Origin: a bacterium
GTDB taxonomy: Bacteria > Patescibacteriota > Minisyncoccia > Phycocordibacterales > UBA6899
Assembly (NCBI GenBank): GCA_021851895.1
Contig: JAJZQJ010000003.1
Coordinates: 63,431-111,674 of the forward strand
Direction: 5' to 3'
Length of the DNA stretch: 48,244 nucleotides
Of the stretch, positions 1-24,029 are shown piece after piece (position 1 is the first letter of the stretch; each line of letters opens with the position of its first letter). The position numbers and the translations under genes are program-made. The notes beneath the pieces were generated by a model. The model ran no database searches, was not told the DNA's origin, and saw nothing but the letters and a program-made list of their open reading frames with translations.

Positions 1-180
1 GTCACTAAGTCTTTAGCCAGCAGAGCTGTCAAAAGCCTAAGTGCTCGTGACCACGGCTCGGCTACAGCCGCTTCGGCTGGGAAGCCTTCAGCGGCTGGCT
101 TCGCAGCCTCCGCCTTTCGAGTCCCGCACCGGGTCGCAGCGGGTAACAAAAAAGAGCTTGCGCTCTTTTTTGTCCCGCTG
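1..180 (-). repeat. tRNA-Leu-associated structured element (truncated by window edge)
   Basis: Minus strand: hairpin, then TGCGACCCGGTGCGGGACTCGAA (inverted copy of tRNA 3' end), then a GC-rich multi-hairpin core homologous to the tRNA-Ala element (CGAAAGGCGGAGGCYGCGAAGCCRGCCGCTGA; CACGAGCACTTAG...CTTAGTGAC). Confidence 0.8.
146..173 (-). terminator. Symmetric hairpin ACAAAAAAGAGC-GCAA-GCTCTTTTTTGT after tRNA-Leu
   Basis: Perfect inverted repeat with A/T tracts; the identical 28-mer occurs after tRNA-Ala. Confidence 0.8.
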
Positions 181-1348: not shown

Positions 1349-1363
1349 AAGATTCAATAAGGT

Positions 1364-1597
1364 GGCACGGGCGGGAATCGGTCACAAGTTACTAAGTCTT
1401 TTGACGCTCTACGAGACGTCAAAAAGCCTAAGTACTCGCGACCCCGACTCGCCGACCGTGCACGCGGCTAGATTTATCACGAGCGAAGCTCGGATAAAAC
1501 AGCGCCGGGTGACGGTACCCGGCTCCGTCTTTCGATTCCCGCCCGTGCACCAAAACAAAGCAAAACAAACGCTTTCGCGTTTGTTTTGTCGTTTTGA
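1364..1597 (-). repeat. tRNA-Cys-associated structured element, distal tandem unit
   Basis: Minus strand: hairpin AAAACAAACGCGAAAGCGTTTGTTTTG; inverted tRNA copy 1533-1548; core; CTTAGTAACTTGTGACCGA; terminal direct copy of the tRNA-Cys 3' end at 1364-1380. Confidence 0.85.
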
Positions 1598-1812
1598 GGC
1601 ACGGGCGGGAATCGGCGTCAGCTCACCGCCGTATATTCGTTCGCTGCGCTCCGAATCTACGGGGTGGCTCCTGCCCGAGCTCGCTCGTCCTCGCGCAAGA
1701 GCGCTGCGGGCGGAGCTCCGCTTTTCGATTCCCGACGAAAGCACCTGATGAAGGTGCTTTCTCCCGTGAAAATCAAAACTCTCGAAGCTGAGCTTCGAGA
1801 GTTTTGATTTTG
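1598..1812 (-). repeat. tRNA-Cys-associated structured element, proximal tandem unit
   Basis: Bounded by direct copies GGCACGGGCGGGAATCG at 1598-1614 and in the tRNA at 1814-1830; short inverted copy CGATTCCCG at 1726-1734; 3' domain 36/44 identical to the tRNA-Tyr element. Confidence 0.83.
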
Positions 1813-1884
1813 AGGCACGGGCGGGAATCGAACCCGCGCATGGCGGTTTTGCAGACCGCAGCGTTACCACTTCGCCACCGTGCC
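1813..1884 (-). tRNA. tRNA-Cys (anticodon GCA)
   Basis: Minus strand GGCACGGTGGCGAAGTGGTAACGCTGCGGTCTGCAAAACCGCCATGCGCGGGTTCGATTCCCGCCCGTGCC. Confidence 0.95.
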
Positions 1885-15648: not shown

Positions 15649-15719
15649 CGGAGTGTAGTATACCGGTAGTATTTACGATTCGGGTTCGTAAGGACCGGGT
15701 TCGATTCCCGGCACTCCGA
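15649..15719 (+). tRNA. tRNA-Pro (anticodon CGG)
   Basis: CGGAGTGTAGTATACCGGTAGTATTTACGATTCGGGTTCGTAAGGACCGGGTTCGATTCCCGGCACTCCGA. Confidence 0.93.
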
Positions 15720-15960
15720 CAGTATTGTTCATTTGCATCGTGTCGGAGTGCCGTGAATCGAACGGATAGGGGCCGGGAAAGGTGTGCCTTGCCCGTGTCG
15801 GAAGGCAGCGAGTCTTCGAGCGTCGGAAACCGTGGGTTTCCGAGGAGCAATGCGGTGCGGGACCCTTTAGGGTGCGCCGCATGCGACGTGAGATGTCCCG
15901 GTGCGCGTGCAAAGTTCGTGAGATACCCCGGACAAGACGCGAAGCGTCTGTATTTTACTC
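15720..15960 (+). repeat. tRNA-Pro-associated GC-rich structured element (divergent type)
   Basis: TGTCGGAGTGCCGTGAATCGAA (15741-15762) is an inverted copy of the tRNA-Pro 3' end; followed by several GC hairpins; no obvious terminal direct copy. Confidence 0.65.
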
Positions 15961-16031
15961 GGGCCTATAGTACAGTGGTAAAACGCTGCATTCGCATTGC
16001 AGAGACGGGGGTTCGATTCCCCCTAGGTCCA
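15961..16031 (+). tRNA. tRNA-Ala (anticodon CGC)
   Basis: GGGCCTATAGTACAGTGGTAAAACGCTGCATTCGCATTGCAGAGACGGGGGTTCGATTCCCCCTAGGTCCA. Confidence 0.94.
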
Positions 16032-16234
16032 CAGCGGTACAAAAAAGAGCGCAAGCTCTTTTTTGTTTTCCGCTGTGCGACCTAGAGGGAATCGAAAGGC
16101 GGAGGCCGCGAAGCCGGCCGCTGAGGTCACGACCGAAGCGGTCGTTGCCGAGCCGGGGTCGCGAGTACTTAGCAAATAAGGAGCGCAGCTCCGCATTTGC
16201 TTAGTAACTTGTGACCGACCCCTAGGTCCACAGC
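16032..16234 (+). repeat. tRNA-Ala-associated structured element
   Basis: Hairpin; GACCTAGAGGGAATCGAA inverted copy (16079-16096); multi-hairpin core; CTTAGTAACTTGTGACCGA; direct copy CCCCTAGGTCCACAGC at 16219-16234 (tRNA copy 16020-16035). Confidence 0.87.
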
Positions 16235-23673: not shown

Positions 23674-23756
23674 GCGTCGGTGGCGGAGCGGTCAATCGCA
23701 ACAGACTGTAAATCTGTCGTCTTCGGGCTACGTAGGTTCGAATCCTACCCGGCGCA
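23674..23756 (+). tRNA. tRNA-Tyr (anticodon GTA)
   Basis: GCGTCGGTGGCGGAGCGG...CAGACTGTAAATCTG, long variable arm, GGTTCGAATCCTACCCGGCGCA. Confidence 0.94.
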
Positions 23757-23995
23757 CAAAGGTACAAAAAAGAGGCTATACGCCTCTTTTTTGTTTACCT
23801 TTGCGACGCCGGATAGGATTCGAAGGACGGAGCCGGGGCTACCGCCGCCCCGGCTGCTGATCTTATCCGGCCAAAGGCCGTGATAGATCCAGCCGGGCGC
23901 GCGGTCGGCGAGTCCTGGCCCTACCTGCACCCCGCATTTTCTGAGCGTAGCGAAAGAAAATACGGAGGTGACAGAGGGGCGAATCCTACCCGGCA
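23757..23995 (+). repeat. tRNA-Tyr-associated structured element
   Basis: Hairpin ACAAAAAAGAGGC...GCCTCTTTTTTGT; inverted copy GACGCCGGATAGGATTCGAA; core; direct copy CGAATCCTACCCGGC at 23980-23994 (tRNA copy 23739-23753). Confidence 0.87.
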
Positions 23996-24029
23996 TTCCC
24001 TGGTTGCGCGGCATTGCGACTTTAGATTC

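Follow-up and report, generated by a model that had tools for sequence, protein, structure and literature searches.

In the Paceibacteria, a large group of tiny symbionts, tRNA genes time and again contain a non-coding insert of ~200 nt that splits off the tail of the gene, supplies a matching one and has a shared fold. The inserts are probably miniature insertion elements, non-coding and specific to tRNA and tmRNA genes, made by a staggered duplication of the target in the T-loop together with fold-back copying. Chances are about even that they form a new class of mobile non-coding element, in which a folded strand inserts itself at the universal T-loop, whatever the tRNA or tmRNA gene, then duplicates the gene's tail and extends a hairpin by fold-back copying, with ends rewritten for each target and nearly the whole tRNA set filled in some genomes. 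If true, such rewriting of the ends would be a form of DNA movement used by no known integrase, transposase or intron, and would explain why, throughout a major branch of the candidate phyla radiation, encoded CCA has been lost and trailers are odd. The trailers of most tRNAs here would then derive from elements, which bears on how reduced symbionts make tRNA.

Elements of the window

The features found in the window, that is the whole stretch of 48,244 nt that was analysed, are given in Table 1. The first-pass annotation had described the tRNA-Tyr element as direct and inverted copies matched to the host gene around a core shared with tRNA-Cys. The direct copy was borne out, with CGAATCCTACCCGGC found exactly at both 23739-23753 and 23980-23994, as was the fit of the inverted copy to Tyr and not to Cys: GACGCCGGATAGGATTCGAA (23805-23824) is complementary to the 3' end of tRNA-Tyr at 17 of 18 positions and to tRNA-Cys only locally, at 8 of 9. 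Direct copies of the Tyr and distal Cys units each match their own host at 15/15 positions, and the inverted copy of the latter is complementary to tRNA-Cys at 18/18. An origin of the inverted copy from the tRNA's own 5' acceptor strand was set aside because at the G-T pair of Tyr the copy agrees with the complement of the 3' strand, and because it runs on into the trailer.

Table 1. Position, strand and character of tRNA genes and element parts in the window
Feature	Position	Strand	Remarks
tRNA-Tyr(GTA), intact	23674-23757	+	3' part C56-C74 (23739-23757) is the regenerated proximal copy; no encoded CCA
Tyr trailer hairpin, running on into inverted copy	23758-23804	+	single ~41-bp hairpin with tRNA 3' strand
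Inverted copy of tRNA-Tyr 3' end	23805-23824	+	ends at T-loop (..TTCGAA)
Tyr A arm, long type	23825-23914	+	invariant GGA/GA internal loop, inner hairpin; possible ACCGC/GCGGT pseudoknot (by eye)
Tyr B arm, type B1	23915-23979	+	ends ..GGGG
Tyr direct (displaced) copy of tRNA 3' part	23980-23994	+	starts at C56; pairs with 23808-23822
tRNA-Leu(TAA, 180-263) element	1-133	-	first of three tandem units extending past window edge
tRNA-Cys(GCA)	1812-1884	-	host of two tandem units
tRNA-Cys proximal unit	1592-1734	-	inverted copy 1724-1734, core B4-like, direct copy 1592-1614; R1 match at window 1614-1722
tRNA-Cys distal unit	1358-1555	-	inverted copy 1531-1548, A-long arm, B2 arm, direct copy 1366-1380
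tRNA-Pro(CGG, 15649-15720) element	15741-15920	+	second core family (F2); right end approximate
tRNA-Ala(CGC, 15961-16032) element	16079-16234	+	inverted copy 16079-16096, core 16098-16216, direct copy 16219-16234

The Tyr core (A arm plus B arm, 23825-23979) is ~155 nt long. Scoring core and ends separately, with shuffling, placed the likeness of the A arm to that of the distal Cys unit well above background: over the first ~90 nt (GACGGAG...CGAGTC) 69 of 89 positions are identical, and the score of 71 compares with a maximum of 28 among 1000 shuffles, while the ends fit their own tRNA. The B arm of Tyr reached a score of only 14 in the same comparison, equalled by 272 of 1000 shuffles, and is a different module type from that of the distal Cys unit. 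The idea of a common core with retargeted ends stands in outline, with support from ~40 loci in the genome, from a second species of the genus and from the whole order, but the two units from which it was drawn have only the A arm in common. Cores are modular and fall into two families, F1, in which the A arm is long or short and the B arm is of types B1-B4, and the unrelated F2. At the edge of the window (positions 1-20; L017:3409-3430) a run of N together with identical tandem Leu units marks an assembly gap inside a tandem array.

Abundance in the genome

A search with blastn found the 190-nt element at 15 places in the 1.1-Mb genome, nearly all of them behind tRNAs and one behind the tmRNA. 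An inverted copy of the gene's own 3' end, typically at +47 to +64, was detected for 35 of the 44 tRNA or tmRNA genes with enough sequence, the threshold being a match above the 95% level of the ends of other tRNAs. The tail of the tRNA and its trailer form one hairpin of about 41 bp. Units measure ~150-250 nt, too short to hold genes, and are non-coding, with chance ORFs only. A search of Rfam 15 returned tRNA, tmRNA and a group I intron only, other matches being weak and far below the gathering cut-offs. The intron (RF00028, 1082-1337) interrupts tRNA-Asn (L016:1056-1384), which was for that reason missed by ARAGORN; this gene has an element too, and its displaced tail retains CCA.

Distribution across the order

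A covariance model built from 21 F1 cores found matches in 192 of the 299 genomes of the order. Scanning all species genomes with a sequence pattern gave matches in Paceibacteria MAGs, among them the closed chromosome CP011215.1, that included Yonath-, Kaiser-, Nomura-, Taylor-, Campbell-, Zambryski- and Lloydbacteria and others, as well as in a number of other MAGs, in one record labelled Saccharibacteria and, apparently by chance, once in Kofleriaceae. Of viral contigs none matched one B-arm pattern; four matches to another pattern look like chance since no tRNA, A arm or hairpin lies nearby. Where a tRNA lies within 350 nt it is on the same strand with its 3' end toward the element in 99 of 111 cases. 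For 91 distinct loci compared, C56 is in most cases the first base of the direct copy, if there is one, and comes immediately after the ..TGAC that ends the element; 83 of the 91 intact tRNAs lack an encoded CCA. In many cases the direct copy has been cut down to 7-9 nt.

Several variants of this arrangement were seen. In sister genera some units pair with the acceptor end only and not with the T-loop. At L166, L148, L116 and L222 there is a second form that pairs with the acceptor end and trailer only, over about 5-8 nt, as if it had been inserted near N73. Loci from many genera (L215, L217, L224, L228, G002/G003) have a conserved side hairpin like GCAAGCAAACTGCTTTGCTTGC within the inverted copy, at about the boundary of acceptor and T-stem. 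A different insert family, with a direct copy that starts at or before the anticodon arm and hence at another subsite, occurs at L033, L104 (Ile-GAT) and L102 (Arg-CCT). Behind several units, as at L030 and L055, another segment held in common (CCTATTYWGCGYGCGCAGCG..) lies downstream of the direct copy together with a terminator. A few elements sit behind genes other than tRNAs; that at L237:5250-5430 follows the apparent end of an rpsU gene and has an inverted copy of the coding end; non-tRNA targets exist.

Folding of the core and the tail hairpin

RNA folding of 23800-24000 gave -112.6 kcal/mol against -76.8 +- 4.4 for shuffles (z -8.1), with the inverted and direct copies closing the core; the distal tRNA-Cys unit folds alike (z -8.8 against shuffles). 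Across 117 distinct core sequences there are compensatory changes of pairs, with 43 G-U versus 13 A-C cells. In 113 of 116 the better fold is that of the tRNA-sense strand. The core therefore has a strand-specific fold of tRNA-sense polarity that is under selection for pairing. In A-long units a loop (ACCGY) could in addition form a pseudoknot with a 3' segment (RCGGT), and the two appear, by eye, to covary. The tail hairpin that matches the tRNA does not resemble a selected RNA helix because its mismatches have no G-U bias (53 G-U versus 52 A-C), and its complementarity looks like the product of copying.

Evidence for insertion

Orthologous tRNA genes were found both empty and filled within a single genus (g58), and the units are therefore insertions. 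In G266 tRNA-Ser(GGA) is empty (..CCTCCGCCA, ending ..CCGCCA, then a terminator), while in G062 it is filled and a displaced CAAATCTCTCCACCTCCGCCA with CCA, followed by the same terminator, lies behind the element. The reverse holds for tRNA-Gly(TCC), which has an F2 element in G266 but none in G062. The tRNA-Phe of G266 has a remnant only. A displaced copy with CCA behind an intact tRNA without it was also found for Asn (L016), Ala (L128), Tyr (L318) and Glu (L343). The association of filled or empty state with CCA (p=0.003) comes from a crude classifier and is supportive only. Such comparisons place the element, comprising trailer hairpin, inverted copy and folded core, in the T-loop between T55 and C56. 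They likewise indicate that the tail of the intact tRNA is the supplied one and that the distal copy is the ancestral 3' end, displaced behind the element. Duplication of the 3' part, C56-C74, keeps the upstream gene intact; the length of this piece, about 19 nt, was read from a few clean cases.

In a second species of the genus (G001) 33 of 41 tRNAs passed the 95% threshold for an inverted copy of their own end, and comparison with it showed that one and the same tRNA often has a different type of core in each species. Ala(CGC) and Gly(CCC) have F1 in one species and F2 in the other, and Asp has a short A arm in one and a long one in the other, yet the ends still match the host tRNA after the swap. 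At Val-TAC, Lys-CTT, Ala-CGC and Gly-CCC, where the tail of the tRNA has altered between the species, the inverted copy has altered alike; rows for Ser-gct and Ile, being register errors or not elements, were left out of this comparison. The same test of G009 found an own inverted copy above the 95% level in 0 of 18 tRNAs. Mobility is suggested by the presence and absence of elements across species.

Mechanism and alternative explanations

In the insertion model an enzyme supplied in trans, probably acting on a folded single strand, would recognise the universal T-loop motif and produce a staggered duplication of ~19 nt of the target there, so that the supplied tail would automatically be the target's own. 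Copying that folds back at the trailer hairpin and runs on into the duplicated tail would make the inverted arm, and tandem units would reflect repeated insertion beside the gene. Duplication and fold-back copying together would explain how one core comes to have ends fitted to any tRNA. The duplication step seems well supported by the anatomy of the loci; the fold-back step and the enzyme are inferred. Weighing against the model are the searches for a mobilising enzyme, which found none that accounts for the elements, the many shortened direct copies, the units that pair at the acceptor end only and the few elements behind other genes. The idea can be tested directly by means of the pairs of empty and filled genes, the constant T55/C56 junction and the covariance model. 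As drivers, Cas1, reverse transcriptase and extra integrases were rejected on presence counts: Cas1 occurs in 13 of the 299 genomes of the order and in none of this genome's family, RVT_1 was found in 0 of 4 genomes, and each of the four has a single Phage_integrase-type protein, probably Xer.

It is unlikely that the elements are instead cis-acting RNAs of pre-tRNA trailers, in which the folded core tips the pairing of the inverted copy, either with the 3' half of the tRNA, which breaks up the cloverleaf, or with the direct copy, which leaves the cloverleaf free, and all tRNAs and the tmRNA are switched together. The nearly constant downstream position in tRNA orientation (99/111), the compensatory changes in a core that folds on the tRNA-sense strand, the GNRA loops of trailer hairpins on that strand (52 to 1) and the presence of elements at ~80% of tRNAs plus the tmRNA in two species would all fit such a switch. 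However, the pairing with the tRNA tail shows no preference of G-U over A-C (53 versus 52), both the presence of elements and the type of core vary between close species, and the trailer hairpin often resembles a strong terminator ahead of the core. An RNA role and insertion can both hold, so the confidences placed in the explanations overlap. An artefact of assembly, or a fold-back chimera formed where contigs end, might be thought of because units are cut off at the ends of several contigs and one has a run of N, but it deserves almost no credence: it is already contradicted by many contig-internal loci, by many independent assemblies including the closed genome CP011215.1 and by covariation.

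Other movers than that of the insertion model were considered. We regard as doubtful an origin as REP-like single-strand elements moved by a HUH transposase of Y1/RAYT type, with the GGAG at the foot of the A arm as the REP tag; REPs are short and have a tetranucleotide tag, GTAG in the published case (PMC3733652). A strand-specific fold agrees with this, and 135 genomes have both Y1_Tnp and the core (odds ratio 2.8, p=4e-5, by statistics that ignore phylogeny). Against it, 57 of the 192 core-bearing genomes are without Y1, no Y1 transposase was found in G001, a genome full of elements, no element lies within ~1.5 kb of six Y1 genes, and REPs are 20-40 bp without a copy of their target; Y1/RAYT as mover is suggestive only. 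That the elements are satellites of tyrosine integrases, i.e. very small tDNA islands with an attachment site in the T-loop, is quite improbable. A regenerated gene, a displaced fragment and a T-loop subsite are indeed the marks of such islands (PMC4383910), but the one integrase match per genome is probably Xer, a fixed attP cannot give fitting tails for >30 different tRNAs, there is no cargo and the inverted copy is left unexplained.

Comparison with known systems

Descriptions of such elements were not found in the open-access papers searched or in Rfam. T-box and other tRNA-linked regulatory RNAs also use alternative pairing with tRNA sequence, but the element lies in cis behind the tRNA gene itself and has no Rfam match. 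Non-LTR retroelements, which are target-primed, duplicate about 20 nt of their target; the element differs in having no coding capacity, and no reverse transcriptase was found in four genomes. Casposons and CRISPR adaptation, which depend on Cas1, resemble it in duplicating a fixed target at the 3' end of a tRNA and in array growth on the gene-proximal side, but Cas1 has the sparse distribution given above.

Like REP/BIME sequences with their RAYT (PMC3733652) the elements are palindromic repeats that are short and non-coding and may move in single-stranded form, with GGAG at the foot of a hairpin, and Y1 genes are common in the order. Unlike them they have a far larger fold, a fixed target in tRNA genes and copies of that target, and Y1 genes are not flanked by them. 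The tDNA-integrated islands catalogued by Islander (PMC4383910) are alike in T-loop insertion into tRNA and tmRNA genes, in regeneration of the gene and in the displaced 3' fragment at the far end, and both the regenerated tRNA and the displaced fragment were found here. No integrase beyond Xer was found in four genomes and no cargo genes in units of 150-250 nt; the elements further differ from such islands in their length of about 0.15-0.25 kb, their number of dozens to a genome, the fit of their tails to each tRNA, the inverted copy that they have of the target and their structured core. The element is accordingly filed under none of the systems compared, since it differs from tDNA islands in its lack of genes and integrase and its tails for >30 tRNAs, and from REPs in its much larger size and the target copy that it carries.
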